Below, one piece after another: positions 24,158 through 34,218 of a stretch of 64,000 bases of DNA (within the stretch, counting starts at the first letter, position 1; every line of letters begins with the position of its first letter). The DNA comes from Sulfurovum sp. (GTDB lineage: Bacteria; Campylobacterota; Campylobacteria; Campylobacterales; Sulfurovaceae), in the NCBI GenBank assembly GCA_020525365.1, contig JAIZOF010000001.1, positions 1,325,456-1,389,455 of the forward strand. Direction: 5' to 3'. The notes beneath the pieces are model-generated. The model did not search any database and was not told the DNA's origin. It saw only the letters and a list, made by a program, of their open reading frames with translations. The translations under genes were made by a program, and so were the position numbers.

Positions 24158-24345
24158 AGGCTTGTCTGCTCTTACTCCTTACTTCCTAAACTACCTTAGT
24201 AATTCATACTTCATTGATTCCCAAAATCATTCAATATAGTGCGTATCTGGAGGTCATATCAAAAGGAGGGTAGCTAAAATATCATTTTGATACCCCCATT
24301 TCACATACAATCAATTAATTAATATTTAAAGAAGTGTTGTTAGAA

Positions 24346-24351
24346 TACAAT
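24346..24351 (+). promoter_or_regulatory. -10 box for the exported-protein module
   Basis: TACAAT in TTAGAATACAATAG, 22 bases before the ATG of the module's first gene. The start point expected near 24358 would give a very short leader that contains the G-run. Confidence 0.4.
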
Positions 24352-24360
24352 AGATACGAA

Positions 24361-24369
24361 GGGGGGGGG
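24361..24369 (+). repeat. Homopolymeric G tract (nine G) at the ribosome site
   Basis: Nine consecutive G stand where the Shine-Dalgarno sequence should be, 4 bases before the ATG at 24374. Runs of 8 or more G are the classic slippage-prone tracts of Campylobacter and Helicobacter phase-variable genes. It is striking in this AT-rich DNA. Length changes would alter ribosome binding or spacing rather than reading frame. TATAAT directly follows the run and overlaps the ATG, so a promoter-spacer role is an alternative. Confidence 0.85.
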
Positions 24370-24373
24370 TATA

Positions 24374-25507
24374 ATGAAAATATTTAAAAAAGTTGGAATT
24401 GCTTTAGTGATGATGATTGCTTTAGGTTTTAGTGGATGTGGAGACAGCAATACACAAAATGAAAATAATCCATCTGTTGAATATGGTGGAGATACAGAAG
24501 GAGATAATGATATATCAAAGTATACAAATGCAGATTGGTTATATCAAAATTATTTTGGAGAGTATGGATTCCCAAATGAATTAAAATGGATGATGCTACC
24601 AGAGCTTCAGATGATAGCAAATGGTTTTGCTATGCAGTATGCAAAAGGTGAAGATGTTCAAAAATCAATTTTACACTTAAATACCGCCATGACAACATCG
24701 TATTACAGTGGAAAACTTAATTCAATGGCTCAGTCAATGCAAGAAGGGTATCAAGAGGGTTTATATAATGTACATGATGTCAATCAAACCGTATTAAATC
24801 ATCAAAAGACTACGCGAAAAATAACTGCAGAGACTCAAAAAAATATTAATGAATCAATAAAACGTAAAAAGCAGTATAAAAAAGAACAAGAAGAGTTGGT
24901 TAAAAAATATCACTTGCCATACAGCATACCAGATAAAGTAACAAAAACTATTATATATTCTCCAGCAATGAAAGACAGTGGAGGGAAGAGTGGTTTGGTT
25001 GATAAGATAAACAAGTATTCTCATGATACAAAATTTAGTGGGTTAGATAAATGGGATTGGTCAAATGCAGATTTCTTTTGGACAAATGGAACTGGTGGTA
25101 TTGGGCATATGGGGTTAATTGATGCAAGTGATCGTAATGGATTTTGTGTGGTAATTGATTCAATGCCAGGTGTTGGTGTTCAATCTCATTATGGGCTTAC
25201 TGATTATGCGAACAAAAGTGGAAATAGTGATTGGACCACCATTGAAGGATACGAATATACTGCATGGAGTCCCTCTGACTCAAAAAGAAATGATGTACTC
25301 CAATTTGCCTACAGTAGAGTAGGAAAAACGAGTTATAGCTTGCTGGTTAGTAAAAATAATAGAAATAAATCTTATTGTTCAAGTTTCATATGGCAAGCTT
25401 TTTACGATAGTGGAGTCAACCTTGATAGTGATGGTGGTTTTTTTGTATGGCCTAGAGACATAACAAATCACTCATCTGTAATGATGTTTAATAGTCAAAA
25501 TCGATAA
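24374..25507 (+). CDS. YiiX-like permuted cysteine hydrolase lipoprotein
   Basis: A 377-aa lipoprotein (signal with lipobox FSGC, Cys22). Residues 142-180 form a Lys/Glu-rich helix. The C-terminal half resembles permuted NlpC/P60-like hydrolases of the YiiX/YebB type, with a His in GGIGHMGLID (H245), a Cys in SYCSSFIWQAF (C335) and WPRDI near 360. Such enzymes cut amide or ester bonds in peptidoglycan or lipids; the substrate is not evident. It heads a four-gene run of exported proteins and sits behind the G9 tract. Gene composition is AT-richer than the neighbours. Confidence 0.75.
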   Translation: MKIFKKVGIALVMMIALGFSGCGDSNTQNENNPSVEYGGDTEGDNDISKYTNADWLYQNYFGEYGFPNELKWMMLPELQMIANGFAMQYAKGEDVQKSILHLNTAMTTSYYSGKLNSMAQSMQEGYQEGLYNVHDVNQTVLNHQKTTRKITAETQKNINESIKRKKQYKKEQEELVKKYHLPYSIPDKVTKTIIYSPAMKDSGGKSGLVDKINKYSHDTKFSGLDKWDWSNADFFWTNGTGGIGHMGLIDASDRNGFCVVIDSMPGVGVQSHYGLTDYANKSGNSDWTTIEGYEYTAWSPSDSKRNDVLQFAYSRVGKTSYSLLVSKNNRNKSYCSSFIWQAFYDSGVNLDSDGGFFVWPRDITNHSSVMMFNSQNR

Positions 25508-25509
25508 CC

Positions 25510-26709
25510 ATGAAACATGCATTGGTTTTAATATCATTATTACTCATTGGGCATGCTGCTAAAACTGATACCTCAAAGATAGTACAAAAATGTGAAAATA
25601 CTTTTGTACTATCTGGATATGGGAATCAAATTATGCTTTTTGAGCATAAAGACAATAGCACAAAGTTTAACCTTTTAAAGATATACCATCAAGGAAATAA
25701 TGCTTTTTATGATTGTAAAAGAAATATAATCATTGCTTTGCAAAATAAAAAGAGAAGGCTAAAAGAGGGAATTTTAATTTACAACATTAGCAACAATTCA
25801 CAAAAACTATATGAAACAAATAGTGGATTTAATGGCATTATTGCTAAGTATAAAGATGGATTTATCTATAGCACCAGCAAAACCAAACTAAACAAAGTCA
25901 ATAATAATCAATTTGGTTATATCCCAAAAAATAAAATATTTTCAAAAAGTTTGATTTTAAATAGCAAAAATAACGAATTGTGGTATCACTATACAGAAGA
26001 TAGGTTTTTCGACTTAAACAAAAGGAGTGTAATCAAAACCTATCCATTTGGTATGTGGAAAATTTCCGAAATAATCAATCATGACCTATATGTTTATGCT
26101 GGAGATTTTTTAAAAATAAACCTAATAAACAAAAAAGCAACAAACCTATGGAGTATTGACCACCATATGTTAAAGCAAAATACAAAAGAGCTAAAATTAC
26201 CCAAAGCAAGAGTTGGGCTTTTTGTAAATGGTGTCTATTTCATCATAACATCTTCCAAGAGTTGGGATACGGTTACAAATAGGAACAACACAAAAGCAGT
26301 CAAATTTAAAAAAGGTGCCATATATCAAATTAAAAATCAAAAACTTTCATTTACAACCCTATTACCTTTTGATGATATTGTTTATGCCAATAGTCCAGAT
26401 AAAAAGTATTTATATATTTTTACAAAATCTAGAAAAGTAATCAAATACCATATTGAGAAAAATAAAATAGTACAAATATATAAATTGAACATTCATTTAG
26501 ATCAAAAATTTGAATTAGCAACTGTTGGGTTTACTGATGATAATTTTATCATATCATTTGAAGAGGATAGATACAGAAATGCCTATATCGTATTAGCAAA
26601 TAAAAATTTTACACATTTTAGCAAACCTTACAATATAAGAATGGGCGGCATAGACATAGCCACTCAAAAAAGTATTCATACAAACCATATGAGGGTGAAC
26701 AATCTGTGA
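25510..26709 (+). CDS. Secreted protein, possibly beta-propeller
   Basis: A 399-aa protein with a short signal peptide (about residues 1-16, ending HAA). The rest is a series of short beta-strand-like segments, such as GILIYNISNN, DGFIYSTSK, LYVYAGDFLKINL and KYLYIFTKSRKVIKYH. They repeat at about 40-50 residue intervals, as in a WD40/PQQ-like propeller, though no classic motif is seen. It starts 2 bases after the hydrolase stop, so the two are co-expressed. Function unknown; it may be a binding partner of the hydrolase or protease. Confidence 0.6.
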   Translation: MKHALVLISLLLIGHAAKTDTSKIVQKCENTFVLSGYGNQIMLFEHKDNSTKFNLLKIYHQGNNAFYDCKRNIIIALQNKKRRLKEGILIYNISNNSQKLYETNSGFNGIIAKYKDGFIYSTSKTKLNKVNNNQFGYIPKNKIFSKSLILNSKNNELWYHYTEDRFFDLNKRSVIKTYPFGMWKISEIINHDLYVYAGDFLKINLINKKATNLWSIDHHMLKQNTKELKLPKARVGLFVNGVYFIITSSKSWDTVTNRNNTKAVKFKKGAIYQIKNQKLSFTTLLPFDDIVYANSPDKKYLYIFTKSRKVIKYHIEKNKIVQIYKLNIHLDQKFELATVGFTDDNFIISFEEDRYRNAYIVLANKNFTHFSKPYNIRMGGIDIATQKSIHTNHMRVNNL

Positions 26710-26774
26710 AAAGAACAGCTGTCTCGTTTAAGTTGTTGCCTATTTTTTGAGGTTATTTTGTCTGGAGATGAAAA

Positions 26775-27167
26775 ATGCAATATTTTACCATTACTTTAGT
26801 TTTAAGCGTACAACTTTTTGCAAATAACCTATATTGGTATAACGATAATCAAAAAATACAAATTTACAATCTTGGTTATGATGAAAAGTATCATGCATTT
26901 TTTTACAGTAACTCTAAAAAGCGAAAAGCTAAAAAGATGGTATTAACAAACAATATCATTTTAGCTTTCAAGAAAAAAGTTGGTACCGATACATTAAATA
27001 TGATACTAGATAAGTATCATTTACAATTGATTCAAGCAATGGCTATAGGTAATGGTTTTTATGTATTGAGATGTTTAGACAATAACCCTTTAGGCGTTGC
27101 AAATCAAATATATGAGAATGAAAATAATATTAAATCATCATATCCAGACTGGATGTATTCAAAGTAA
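26775..27167 (+). CDS. Stand-alone subtilase pro-domain-like protein
   Basis: A 130-aa exported protein (signal ending LFANN) made up of what looks like the pro-domain of an S8 peptidase. It has a strand MVLTNNIILAFKKKV, a helix and strand DKYHLQLIQAM, then GNGFYVLRC and the typical close ANQIYENENNIKSSYPDW. In most subtilases this folds the enzyme and inhibits it in cis. Here it has its own signal peptide and stop. Its stop codon shares one base with the protease ATG, so both are made together. Confidence 0.65.
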   Translation: MQYFTITLVLSVQLFANNLYWYNDNQKIQIYNLGYDEKYHAFFYSNSKKRKAKKMVLTNNIILAFKKKVGTDTLNMILDKYHLQLIQAMAIGNGFYVLRCLDNNPLGVANQIYENENNIKSSYPDWMYSK

Positions 27168-28636
27168 TGAAATTATTATTGATCCTATTATTGGCAATAT
27201 TATTAATAGGTTGTGGAGAAAACAACAAAGAGGACCCACTCAAAAAAGACCAATGGTATTTAGATGGGTCAAAAAATGAATATATTGATATAAACTTACA
27301 ACATAGTTTATATAGAGGGAGAAACGTATTGATAGCCATTGTTGATAATGGTATAGATATTTTTCATGAGGATTTAAAAGAGAATATTGGGGTTGGTAGC
27401 TATAGTTATCTCACAAAAGAGTATAGTTTTAATGATGCAAATCATGGAACCGCATGTGCTGGAATAATCGCAGGGGTTGAAGGAAATGGCAAAGGCATAA
27501 GAGGAATTGCTTCAAAAGCAAAAGTAATAGGCTACAATGCATTAAAAGTACCATCTATTAGTAATATTGCAGATGCGCTTATAAGAAATAAAGAAAAAGT
27601 TTGGATTTCAAATAATAGTTGGGGTGATTTTAATTCATGGGGTGAGCCATTATTATTAAGAAGCATCGAAGAAGAGGCCTTAAAAGATGGTGTGCGGTAT
27701 GGTAGAAATGGAAAAGGTATTATTTATGTATTTAGTGCGGGAAATGGTTCAGCAGACGAGAAGAGTGTGCCAACTGACAATGTCAATTATAGTGGATTAG
27801 TGAACAACAGATATACAATACCAGTTGGTGCAGTTGATGAATTTGGTAAAAAAGCCCACTATTCAGAAGTGGGTGCTACATTAATTGTTGTTGCTCCATC
27901 AAAAGGGAGTACTGAAGGGGCTGGAATTGTTACAACAGATGTGACAGGAGAAAAGGGTTACAACCCTGAAACTTTCCCTAGTGATTATAAAAATCACAGT
28001 TATACCAAGAATTTTGGCGGAACTTCTGCATCAGCACCCATGGTAAGTGGTGTTGTTGCATTAATGCTTGAAGCAAATTCGCATTTAACTTGGCGAGATG
28101 TTAGAATGGTATTGGCTCAAAGTGCTACTAAAAATGACCCCAACGATAGTGATTGGGAGTACAATGGTGCAAATTTGCATATTAACCATAAATATGGATT
28201 TGGTTTAGTCAATGCAAAAGAAGCCATAGATTTAGCATTAAATTGGAAGGGTGTAGCAGAGGAAAAATTGATAGAAAAATTTCAAGATGTTAATGTATCA
28301 ATTCCTGACAATAATGACAATGGGGTAGATGGTGTTATCAATATAGAAAAAAATATTTCTATTGAATTTATTGATATTTATTTTAATACAAATGATCATC
28401 AAAAATTAGGAGATTTAGAAATTACTCTCATATCACCATATGGAACAAAAAGTATATTGGCACAAAGACATGAAGAAGCGTTTGAGGGTATTTTTAAATA
28501 TAATAATTGGAGGTTTGGAACAATGAGACATCTTAATGAGTATTCAAAGGGTGAATGGAAATTGCAAGTAAAAGATTTACGAGAAGGCAATAGTGGTACT
28601 TTTATATCGTGGGGATTAAAAATTTATGGGCATTAG
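27167..28636 (+). CDS. Kexin-like S8 serine protease lipoprotein with P-domain
   Basis: A 489-aa subtilase with a lipoprotein signal (LLIGC, Cys16), no pro-domain of its own, and the catalytic triad Asp60 (IAIVDNGID), His93 (NHGTACAGI) and Ser287 (GGTSASAPM). NNSWG and FSAGNGS contribute to the substrate and oxyanion sites. The last ~110 residues form a proprotein-convertase P-domain (LGDLEITLISPYGT, WKLQVKDLREGNSG...SWGLKIYGH). It is expected to be surface- or periplasm-anchored. The order prodomain-like ORF then protease suggests activation in trans. Codon use is richer in A and T than the flanking housekeeping genes. Confidence 0.9.
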   Translation: MKLLLILLLAILLIGCGENNKEDPLKKDQWYLDGSKNEYIDINLQHSLYRGRNVLIAIVDNGIDIFHEDLKENIGVGSYSYLTKEYSFNDANHGTACAGIIAGVEGNGKGIRGIASKAKVIGYNALKVPSISNIADALIRNKEKVWISNNSWGDFNSWGEPLLLRSIEEEALKDGVRYGRNGKGIIYVFSAGNGSADEKSVPTDNVNYSGLVNNRYTIPVGAVDEFGKKAHYSEVGATLIVVAPSKGSTEGAGIVTTDVTGEKGYNPETFPSDYKNHSYTKNFGGTSASAPMVSGVVALMLEANSHLTWRDVRMVLAQSATKNDPNDSDWEYNGANLHINHKYGFGLVNAKEAIDLALNWKGVAEEKLIEKFQDVNVSIPDNNDNGVDGVINIEKNISIEFIDIYFNTNDHQKLGDLEITLISPYGTKSILAQRHEEAFEGIFKYNNWRFGTMRHLNEYSKGEWKLQVKDLREGNSGTFISWGLKIYGH

Positions 28637-29014
28637 GTGCAACAAAACCTCATATTAAAAATAAATGTATCAATAAAATCGATTTAAGCGAAGATACTAT
28701 TGCCCATCAAAAAACAAAAAAATAGTTTCGTTAGATTATGTTAGCAGATATCTATTTTGAAGATAAGGCATACGAGAATAAAAACAACGATAGATCAAGG
28801 GGTGCGTACAACTATATATTTTAAAATGTTTTGTTATCATAGACCTAAAAAGAAGCAAACGCACGCATTAGGACATAGGAAAGATGGGTATGTATGTCAA
28901 TATGTTCGATGACTTAGAGATAAACAAGGCAGAAGAAGCAGAGCTAGATGGGAAGGGTTATACACCTACCTTACTCTTCCCATACTCTAGTCTTATACAT
29001 GCAAGGTAAACTCC
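28637..29014. other. Intergenic stretch after the protease module
   Basis: About 380 bases with no long frame on either strand. It has short coding-like fragments broken by stops and one small frame with a ribosome site (listed separately). No inverted repeats or transposase signature were found. It may be the decayed right border of the accessory module. Confidence 0.5.
28884..29009 (+). CDS. Possible 41-aa small protein
   Basis: A small frame beginning MGMYVNMFDDLEINKAEEAE and ending LIHAR, with GGACATAGGAAAG just before the ATG. The start is acidic with no signal peptide or membrane segment, and I recognise no family. It could be a real small gene or the remnant of a larger one. Confidence 0.22.
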   Translation: MGMYVNMFDDLEINKAEEAELDGKGYTPTLLFPYSSLIHAR

Positions 29015-31051: not shown

Positions 31052-31980
31052 GTTTTCTTATTTTTGTCACCGCCATGGGTATTCTAATTTGGGGTGCAGA
31101 TATACTCATCTATCAAAGTGAGAAGATCGCATTACGTTTCAATATTCCTGAGTTTATTATTGGTGCTACCCTCATTGCACTAGGAACATCTCTGCCTGAA
31201 ATGGCTGCCTCCATTGCTGCAAGTGCTGAAAATAAGACCGATATTGCTATCTCTAACGTGATTGGAAGCAATATTTTCAATATTACATTGGTACTGGCTT
31301 CTGTTTTTCTTATAGCACGAAATATCTCACCTAGTAGGGACTTTTTTTCCAAAGACAGTACTTGGATACTAATGCCAGTCTTCACATTCATACTTGTAAT
31401 CTTGGATGATATAATTTCACGTTTTGATGCCATACTACTACTGCTACTCATGGGATCCTATGTATTTTTTTTATTTCAAGATACAAGAAATATGCCCAAG
31501 GAAGATCTTGAAGATGTTGCAAAAAAACCCTTTGTTTGGGTTTCAACTCTTTCAATGTTAATACTGGGTTTTATACTTGTCATTATCGGTGCTCATTTCA
31601 CTGTAGAGAGCGCATCAGATATTGCTAAAAGTTTTGGTATATCCGAATGGGTTATTGGAATTATCCTGATCTCCTTAGGAACATCACTTCCTGAACTGGT
31701 CGTCAGTGTTTCTGCAGCTATAAAGGGTAAAGTTGATATGGCGATTGGGAATATTATTGGTTCAAATATGGCCAATATTTCTGTAGTACTTGGATCAGCA
31801 GCTCTCATTAAACCGTTACCCATTAAATCACTTCATTATATTTTTGATATTACCGTGATGGGTATTGCCACACTATTGCTTGTCTTTCTTGTGGCGAATA
31901 AACTCTATACTAAATCTGCTGGTACTATCCTGCTGATCATTCTTGGTCTTTTTCTAGAACATATCATACAAGGTTTCTAG
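31048..31980 (+). CDS. Na+/Ca2+ exchanger family protein (YrbG-like)
   Basis: A 310-aa inner-membrane CaCA-family antiporter with the two inverted alpha-repeats GTSLPEMAASI and GTSLPELVVSV, each followed by GSNIFNITLV or GSNMANISVV. About ten membrane segments. It exchanges Ca2+ (or another cation) for Na+ or H+. AGGAGA precedes the ATG at 31048, which overlaps the ybeY stop. The second alpha-repeat and C-terminus (from 31670) are duplicated downstream. Confidence 0.92.
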   Translation: MSFLIFVTAMGILIWGADILIYQSEKIALRFNIPEFIIGATLIALGTSLPEMAASIAASAENKTDIAISNVIGSNIFNITLVLASVFLIARNISPSRDFFSKDSTWILMPVFTFILVILDDIISRFDAILLLLLMGSYVFFLFQDTRNMPKEDLEDVAKKPFVWVSTLSMLILGFILVIIGAHFTVESASDIAKSFGISEWVIGIILISLGTSLPELVVSVSAAIKGKVDMAIGNIIGSNMANISVVLGSAALIKPLPIKSLHYIFDITVMGIATLLLVFLVANKLYTKSAGTILLIILGLFLEHIIQGF

Positions 31981-32311
31981 AAAACTACGTTCTCCTTAGG
32001 AACATCACTTCCTGAACTGGTCGTCAGTGTTTCTGCAGCTATAAAGGGTAAAGTTGATATGGCGATTGGGAATATTATTGGTTCAAATATGGCCAATATT
32101 TCTGTAGTACTTGGATCAGCAGCTCTCATTAAACCGTTACCCATTAAATCACTTCATTATATTTTTGATATTACCGTGATGGGTATTGCCACACTATTGC
32201 TTGTCTTTCTTGTGGCGAATAAACTCTATACTAAATCTGCTGGTACTATCCTGCTGATCATTCTTGGTCTTTTTCTAGAACATATCATACAAGGTTTCTA
32301 GAAAACTACGT
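31670..32311 (+). repeat. 321-bp tandem direct duplication (two copies)
   Basis: Bases 31670-31990 and 31991-32311 appear identical. The unit starts TCTCCTTAGGAACATCAC and ends AAAACTACGT, covering the last third of the exchanger gene plus 10 bases after its stop. The perfect match points to a recent event or an assembly error. Confidence 0.95.
31991..32301 (+). pseudogene. Truncated second copy of exchanger C-terminus
   Basis: The duplicated unit carries about 102 codons of the exchanger C-terminal region without its start and ends at the same TAG. An internal ATG at 32059 could give an 80-aa fragment, but no ribosome site is apparent, so it is probably not expressed as a functional protein. 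Confidence 0.85.
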
Positions 32312-34218
32312 TTTAATGGGTAACGGTTTAATGAGAAGCTGCTGATCCAAGTACTACTATATTGGCCATATTTGAACCAATAATATTCCCAATCATATAT
32401 CAACTTTTTTTCTGCTTGTTGCTTTTCTGAAAGAACAATATAGTTATGTTTGTATAGCCACTTATATATTTTTGCTGCCATAGGTCCTGCTGTACTTCCA
32501 CCATGACCGCCATGTTCAATGAGTACCGTGACCACATATTGGGGATCTTCATAGGGTGCATAGGTTGTAATCCAAGCATGCGATCGGTGATAATAGGCAA
32601 GTTCAGACTCTTTTAGACGTTTGGCAGTCGACTGGGGAATAGATTGTACCTGTGATGTAGCAGTTTTTCCGGCAACCACAATAGGTAAATTATGCATTGT
32701 TTTATATGCGGTTCCTCTTCGAGAGTTACATACATCATACATGCCTTTTTTAATTTCTGAAATAGCATATGGATTCAGAGACATGGGTACAATCTCTGGT
32801 ACTGTTGCATTACCATCTACCAGTTTTGCAACACGAGGCTTAACTAAATTTCCAGTTGCTATCAGTGCTGTATAGCGTGCAATCTGAATCGGCGTAACCA
32901 AATCATACCCCTGACCGATAGAAGCAATGGCTGTTTCACCTTTATACCATGGCTGTCCAAAACGACGCCTCTTCCATGCCTTATCAGGCATAACGCCAAT
33001 ATATTCTCTGGGTAAATCTACACCTGTTTTCACTCCAAGCCCAAAAGAGCGCAGATACTTTGCTGCAGCATCAATACCTACCTTGAGGCTTTTGTCGTAA
33101 AAGTAGACATCACAACTCTCCCTAATTGCCTTTCTGAGTGCAACCTTACCATGCCCAAAATGTTTCCAACATCGAAACTTATGGCTACTTTTTCCTATAG
33201 TAATATATCCCTTACAGTGATCTGAGTTTTTTAAAATACCAGGATGGGTTTCCTCGAAGGCAAGTGCCATTCCCATTTTAATAGTTGATCCTGGAGGATA
33301 GATTCCATGTACAATCTTATTGGAAAAAGGGTGAGAAAAATCTTCCCTTAATGCATGCCAATCTTTAAAACTGATTCCTCCAACAAAAAGGTTTGGGTTG
33401 TAAGCGGGGTAACTCACTGCAGCAACAAGTTCTCCTGTAACACGCATTACAATAGCAACACCTGTTTCTTTCTTCTTTTTAAATATATTATGGATCATAC
33501 GTTGCAAATCAATATCAATGTTCAGTGTTAGATTTTTATTATCTTGTGGTGGTACTTTCTTAAGAACTTCTATTGCTCTATTGGTTGCTGTTACCTTGCT
33601 GACAACATAGCCATATTCCCCCTGAAGTACTTTATTGTAATACCGTTCTAAACCTGTTTTTCCTACTTGTCCAACAATACTTACAACCTTATCAATACTG
33701 TTTTCTTTTGGATTGGAGCGACCAGTATATCCAACAAGATGAGCAGCATAGTTTCCATATGGATAGTAACGTTTTGTTTCTACTTCAATTTTAATATTAG
33801 AATTAAGACTCAACTTTGCATACGCACCCATCATCTTTGCATAAGGAATAAAATCTACGACCTTAATAAACTTGTGATTGTACAGCGAACTATACTTTCT
33901 GTAGACTTTGTACAGTAAGATGATATTAAGATCAGGAAATGCTTCAGAGAGTATCTCTCCTACTGTCTCAAGTGCCTTGCTTCCACTCTTTAGGTGTGGT
34001 CGTATCGAGATAGAGAATCCTATTTGATTCATTGCAAGTAGCTTTCCGTGCACATCAGAGATACTGCCTCGAATAGGCTTAATAAACTCTTTATGCTCTA
34101 CATTTTCCTTGGCAAGTTTCTCATAGTAATAGTTAGATTTAATGCTAATATGATAGAGTCTTGCAATCATAGTGACCCATACAGAAACAAAAATAAAAAA
34201 TATCAATTGATATTTCAT
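32275..34218 (-). CDS. mrdA: Penicillin-binding protein 2 with altered C-terminus
   Basis: A class B transpeptidase of lateral wall growth, the partner of RodA. 647 aa: an N-terminal membrane anchor (FIFVSVWVTMIARL), a pedestal, then the transpeptidase domain with the nucleophile Ser in PGSTIKMG, the second motif in ESCDVYFYD and the third in GKTATSQV. The last ~45 residues, from about KLIYDWEYYW, are encoded by an inverted copy of the exchanger gene and look foreign to PBP2. The natural end was probably near QQAEKK. It is preceded by a membrane protein gene with a 4-base overlap. Confidence 0.93.
   Translation of the reverse strand: MKYQLIFFIFVSVWVTMIARLYHISIKSNYYYEKLAKENVEHKEFIKPIRGSISDVHGKLLAMNQIGFSISIRPHLKSGSKALETVGEILSEAFPDLNIILLYKVYRKYSSLYNHKFIKVVDFIPYAKMMGAYAKLSLNSNIKIEVETKRYYPYGNYAAHLVGYTGRSNPKENSIDKVVSIVGQVGKTGLERYYNKVLQGEYGYVVSKVTATNRAIEVLKKVPPQDNKNLTLNIDIDLQRMIHNIFKKKKETGVAIVMRVTGELVAAVSYPAYNPNLFVGGISFKDWHALREDFSHPFSNKIVHGIYPPGSTIKMGMALAFEETHPGILKNSDHCKGYITIGKSSHKFRCWKHFGHGKVALRKAIRESCDVYFYDKSLKVGIDAAAKYLRSFGLGVKTGVDLPREYIGVMPDKAWKRRRFGQPWYKGETAIASIGQGYDLVTPIQIARYTALIATGNLVKPRVAKLVDGNATVPEIVPMSLNPYAISEIKKGMYDVCNSRRGTAYKTMHNLPIVVAGKTATSQVQSIPQSTAKRLKESELAYYHRSHAWITTYAPYEDPQYVVTVLIEHGGHGGSTAGPMAAKIYKWLYKHNYIVLSEKQQAEKKLIYDWEYYWFKYGQYSSTWISSFSLNRYPLKRSFLETLYDMF
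32312..32406 (-). repeat. Inverted partial copy of exchanger gene
   Basis: About 95 bases that match, in reverse complement and with a few small differences, 31729-31826 (and its copy 32050-32147). It begins with TTTTAATGGGTAACGGTTTA next to the tandem copy and runs into the mrdA coding sequence. With the upstream copy it could form a long hairpin. Confidence 0.9.

Follow-up and report, generated by a model that had tools for sequence, protein, structure and literature searches.

Organization and base composition of the locus

The window, that is, the whole 64,000-nucleotide stretch of DNA analysed here (G000:C1:1325456-1389455), belongs to a genome of 1.47 Mb and contains, at 24374-28636, four consecutive genes (g1 to g4) that all lie on the + strand and are separated, by ORF positions, by gaps of 2, 65 and -1 nt. 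The four ORFs were found exactly where the initial annotation had placed them, and the genes on either side, which it had called housekeeping genes, are ordinary single genes. Its description of all four products as exported agrees with the lipoboxes of g1 (FSGC) and g4 (LIGC) and with the signal-like hydrophobic N-terminal segments of g2 and g3. The features are as follows:

24341-24351, + strand: possible -10 elements TAGAAT and TACAAT, weak, from the sequence and a consensus scan
24361-24369, + strand: G9 tract where the Shine-Dalgarno sequence of g1 (ATG at 24374) would lie; possible slippage site with a putative function
24374-25507, + strand: g1, lipoprotein with an N-terminal domain and a C-terminal permuted NlpC/P60 domain (C92, YaeF/YiiX-like)
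25510-26709, + strand: g2, exported protein, likely a beta-propeller (AF2 and Foldseek), with a 39% relative in genome G016
26775-27167, + strand: g3, predicted stand-alone exported subtilase pro-domain with Lys as its final residue
27167-28636, + strand: g4, lipoprotein protease with S8 and P-domain, without a pro-domain of its own
28637-28969, + strand: non-coding stretch, 100% identical to a partial copy elsewhere in the genome (copy C, see below), which looks like decayed mobile DNA

The stop codon of g3 and the start codon of g4 overlap by one base (TAATG). GC of the locus is about 31%, and the four genes had been described as richer in AT than their flanks. This is clearly the case for g2 (GC 0.277) and g3 (0.267), which are strong outliers relative to the 54 other ORFs of the window (0.381 +/- 0.030), whereas g1 (0.335) and g4 (0.337) lie at the edge of that spread (about -1.5 sd) and depart further in GC3, which is 0.22-0.26 across the four genes and 0.326 +/- 0.044 in the other 54.

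Nine G residues do stand immediately 5' of the g1 ATG, as had been pointed out; the tract is unique within the window, and a G9 occurs in 7 of 100 shuffled sequences. Since the genome contains only 8 tracts of at least 8 G, the G9 tract does not belong to any evident class of contingency tracts, and its membership of an enriched contingency set is not supported. Slippage at the tract could tune the translation of g1. Promoter-like sites in the region show no excess over shuffled sequences in the consensus scan.

A subtilase pro-domain encoded apart from its protease

The product of g4 is a P-domain subtilase lipoprotein, as initially annotated: besides its lipobox, it matches the Pfam S8 (E=5e-43) and P-domain (E=5e-18) families, can be aligned with furin from one end to the other (E=4e-56), and keeps an intact D/H/S catalytic triad. 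The mature N-terminus lies about 32 aa ahead of the S8 domain, and no pro-domain profile match was detected within g4. Pro-domains act as intramolecular chaperones in the textbook subtilase, and several lines of evidence point to g3, whose exported product of 130 aa begins with a signal-like segment, as the missing part.

Neither g3 nor g2 has a matching Pfam family. The assignment of g3 as the separate pro-domain of a P-domain subtilase, already made in the initial annotation, is borne out by a natural fusion, by fold matches, and by the 48 further split loci described below. The fusion is a 760-aa protein of genome G433, in which an N-terminal g3-like part is joined to an S8 plus P-domain part 48% identical to g4. 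Its pro-domain part matches g3 with E=7e-7 over 89 aa, and the two share the pattern NSLYWY..., ...HPVFY.SK...KMVL.N.II...YP.W. In an AlphaFold (AF2) model of g3, which is of modest confidence (pLDDT 70, pTM 0.51), the secondary elements follow the propeptide order. Foldseek matched this model to the BPN' prosegment and to the PC1 prodomain on furin (each with prob 1.00), to POIA1, and to ASP-ORF2 (3wqb_B; prob 0.99, TM 0.51/0.64), with E-values of about 0.07-0.15 and with a few unrelated folds reaching similar scores. The pro-domain profiles (A1, A4) gave no sequence match to the ORF2 chain or to other PDB propeptides, so that the correspondence is one of fold only. Because the g3-like part is fused to a protease in G433, because genes of the same kind stand beside other subtilases, and because the predicted fold is that of a propeptide, g3 can be read as the pro-domain missing from g4, and the two genes very probably encode a pro-domain and its protease as separate proteins.

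The designation of g4 as kexin-like is supported for its architecture (S8 plus P-domain) only and not for its cleavage. The positions of furin D154, D191, D258, and D306 are occupied in g4 by N, D, N, and S in the alignment; residues 154, 258, and 306, all Asp in furin, are among the determinants of its dibasic preference. A relative of g4 in Geobacteraceae likewise carries N, N, and S at these three positions, while the fused G433 protein retains D154, D258, and D306 but not D191. With these acidic residues of the furin S1 and S2 pockets replaced, dibasic specificity of g4 is doubtful, and its S1 pocket does not necessarily accommodate the C-terminal Lys of g3. Since the alignment is poor in the loops around furin 258, the replacements are to be taken as a warning rather than as proof.

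Distribution of split pro-domain genes in Campylobacterota

A locus search covering a sample of the family and 397 genomes sampled from the phylum identified 48 further Campylobacterota loci in which a separate pro-domain gene adjoins a subtilase, with nearly all pairs no more than 16 nt apart and with gaps of -29 to +8 nt in nearly all. These loci exhibit two layouts. The pro-domain gene lies upstream of a protease without a P-domain in 28 of them and downstream of a P-domain protease, the order known from Aeromonas ASP/ORF2, in the remaining 20. Arg is the last residue in 26 of the 28 upstream pro-domains (Lys and Gln in one each), as if the stop codon had taken the place of the scissile bond; no terminal-residue rule is seen among the 20 downstream ones. 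Profile comparison places both groups in one family (E=5e-16).

A tree built from the S8 domains has two strongly supported halves, which separate the upstream from the downstream layout. The window g4 pairs with the Geobacteraceae protease (100/99) on the P-domain side, apart from the other upstream pairs, which implies that the layout of the window, the sole case seen of an upstream pro-domain with a P-domain protease, probably arose separately. Fused pro-domain subtilases occur in both halves of the tree; as the loci were found in part by pro-domain profile searches, split forms are over-represented relative to fused ones. The long P-domain proteases of the family had been supposed to carry fused pro-domains, which proved wrong, since most have a downstream pro-domain gene instead. 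One such pair, a second P-domain subtilase followed by an ORF2-like pro-domain gene, is present in the genome of the window itself (L043, 5520-7828 in reverse-complement coordinates; about 964-966 kb of G000:C1).

It thus seems that the upstream or downstream position of the pro-domain follows the protease clade across a phylum in which separate genes are common. No literature on such split pairs in Campylobacterota was found in a search made mostly without subscription journals. The 48 loci offer material on why pro-domains detach, on how frequently fusion and splitting occur, and on how an anchored protease stays off.

The upstream ORF of L052, considered as a pro-domain, proved unrelated and was dropped. 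A lone gene for a pro-domain-like protein of 123 aa lies by a pyruvate kinase gene (L063, G036:C68, 328-699), with no adjacent subtilase on this short contig. A plasmid of Nitratiruptor sp. YY09-18 (L066, NZ_AP023066.1) carries a fused pro-domain subtilase near glycosyltransferase genes.

Neighbouring envelope proteins and their recurrence in another phylum

The initial annotation had classified g1 as a YiiX-like hydrolase lipoprotein. Its match to the Pfam C92 family (E=3.7e-5, 24.3 bits) falls just below the curated cut-off of 27, but a relative in a Geobacteraceae MAG (L065) passes it (E=7.7e-7, 29.8 bits), and both display the permuted His-acid-Cys order in an alignment (A2), which together with the lipobox upholds the classification. 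Judging from this alignment, H245, D262 (E in L065), and C335 of g1 are likely to form the triad. Permuted NlpC/P60 enzymes bind or cut lipids (PMC3142127), and g1, which is lipid-amidase-like, would be likely to act on acyl-amide or ester bonds. It shares with YaeF and YiiX the His before Cys, the acidic third residue, and the lipoprotein or membrane setting, and differs from them in its weak C92 profile score and in carrying roughly 200 additional residues ahead of the catalytic domain, where a conserved motif reads NYTNADWLYQNYFG or close to it.

As for g2, it had been left as an unclassified repeat protein and is best read instead as probably a beta-propeller: its AF2 model, which is confident in part, is all-beta (mean pLDDT 57), and Foldseek relates it to beta-propellers, for instance AztD and BamB, with E-values as low as 2e-7 and TM-scores of 0.3-0.45. 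No relatives of g1 were found on plasmids or phages, none of g2 on plasmids, and neither g1 nor g4 in viral contigs.

A scan of genome contigs returned a single g1 relative, that of the Geobacteraceae MAG, where the gene order is as in the window: the g1 relative (26%), a lipoprotein in the position of g2, a membrane ORF of 186 aa, and a g4 relative (57%). The lipoprotein has a start motif in common with g2 but matches it only with E=0.04. The 186-aa ORF, which occupies the place of g3, was considered as a divergent pro-domain and gave no match; the sole pro-domain match of the MAG is fused to another subtilase. GC is 45% at this locus, 50% in its surroundings, and roughly 31% at the window locus, so that the two are not linked by a recent transfer. 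Proteins as close to g4 as that of the MAG were absent from 75 other genomes of its family. Thus, the proposal of a four-gene module stands in part, and the outcome named as refuting it, that the families are never together elsewhere, is not fully borne out: g1 and g4, possibly with g2, recur in the same order, whereas g3 is missing and no second set of four was found. Since this order recurs in another phylum, g1 and g4 constitute a genuine but rare cross-phylum set, with two genomes as its members and with g3 outside it in the second, and g1-(g2)-g4 represents a new candidate envelope system.

An alternative is that the four genes came to lie side by side by chance within an AT-rich accessory island, where a protease pair with a split pro-domain stands beside two unrelated exported genes with which it shares no function. 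In its favour, a search of 396 other Campylobacterota genomes for g1 yielded two local matches only and no whole protein; the g2 relative of G016 stands without g1, g3, or g4; protease pairs of both layouts occur without g1 and g2; and 65 nt separate g2 from g3. This explanation is nevertheless considered unlikely, as it leaves unaccounted for the presence in a different phylum of g1 and a 57% identical g4 in the same order, with a g2-like gene between them.

Relationship to known systems and proposed mechanism

The closest published parallel found to the split pairs is the ASP/ORF2 system of Aeromonas sobria, in which a kexin-family protease without a pro-domain is likewise accompanied by an adjacent gene for a small secreted pro-domain-like protein. 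ORF2, the external chaperone and inhibitor of ASP, and g3 both end in Lys, and the fold match noted above (3wqb_B) extends the likeness; this last residue of ORF2 sits at the catalytic Ser of ASP (PMC5638518). The two systems differ in that orf2 lies downstream of asp, while g3 lies upstream of g4, in that the g3-type profiles have no sequence match to ORF2, and in that the same publication does not appear to describe g1- or g2-like partners of ASP. Furin and kexin (S8B) and bacterial S8 plus P-domain proteases share the domain architecture of g4, which differs in having its pro-domain on a separate gene, in being a lipoprotein, and in the replacement of the furin-specific acidic residues. Separately encoded propeptide folds are also known in MEROPS family I9 (POIA1 and the yeast peptidase B inhibitor), in Plasmodium SUB1-ProM, and in Toxoplasma MIC5. 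These, however, either target a protease with a pro-domain of its own (SUB1) or do not originate from an enzyme precursor, whereas g4 lacks a pro-domain.

Taken together, the best reading of the locus, to which we assign a probability of about two in three, is that g3 serves as an external pro-domain, chaperone and inhibitor at once, for an anchored protease with g1 as a possible target. According to this model, g3 and g4 would amount to one protease divided over two genes, with both products exported. The g3 protein would fold as a subtilase pro-domain, bind nascent g4 in trans, and aid its folding, and its C-terminal Lys would plug the active site of g4 until g3 is degraded, after which g4 would be an active, lipid-anchored S8 and P-domain protease. 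The permuted NlpC/P60 lipoprotein g1 and g2, a likely propeller scaffold, may be its envelope partners. Their partnership with g3 and g4 is drawn from the one other genome, where a separate pro-domain did not turn up and the g2 match is weak (E=0.04); we infer it, along with the substrate and the chaperone or inhibitor action, from the comparisons above. The likeliest use, held with low confidence, would be that g4 trims or releases g1 or the targets of g1 while g2 holds them together; activation or release of the hydrolase by the protease, as raised in the initial annotation, is plausible. It is also conceivable, though doubtful, that the set represents an envelope system shared across phyla. 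In it, a P-domain protease with an external chaperone would control a lipid-modifying NlpC/P60 lipoprotein with a propeller adaptor, in a phylum where separate pro-domain genes, in two clade-specific orders, would be the usual route to such proteases.

The role of g3 might also be mainly that of an I9-type regulator, which keeps g4 off until a signal arrives rather than helping it to fold. Stand-alone propeptide-like proteins, including the Pleurotus and yeast inhibitors and SUB1-ProM, do inhibit mature enzymes (PMC6993865), and ORF2 itself inhibits ASP with an IC50 of 84 nM (PMC5638518). We regard this as rather improbable, given that g4 has no other pro-domain and that the precursors of the G433 relative and of usual subtilases include theirs. 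Least probable by far is a conflict system in which g1 is a lipid-degrading toxin that g4 frees to attack other cells. One permuted NlpC/P60 effector, Tox-Act1, does act as an antibacterial phospholipase (PMC12994826), and g1 diverges faster than g4 (26% vs 57%), but the inter-bacterial action raised in the initial annotation is not shown by any of the results, neither an immunity gene nor a secretion machine or polymorphic tail is seen, all parts resemble resident envelope proteins, and PADLOC returned only generic subtilase matches, on which account identity as a defence system was rejected.

Partial copies of the locus and other genomic observations

Two partial copies of the locus exist in the same genome, the complete locus being found only in the window. 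Copy B (L041:7651-8919) is an exact copy of window positions 25594-26862 and interrupts a cytochrome c peroxidase-like gene, while copy C (L042:7993-10115) is an exact copy of positions 26847-28969, in which g4 is intact and g3 lacks its signal. The copies lie 295 kb apart, have 16 bp in common, and together tile the locus; they reflect either a real duplication or an assembly error.

Elsewhere in the window, an exact 322-bp tandem duplication (31670-32312) affects the 3' end of a sodium/calcium-exchanger-like gene and is adjoined by an inverted partial copy of 92%. The second contig of the assembly (L111, G000:C2, 7.7 kb) resembles animal DNA and contains a retrotransposon-like ORF as well as masked sequence, which suggests that the bacterium is animal-associated and has a reduced genome.
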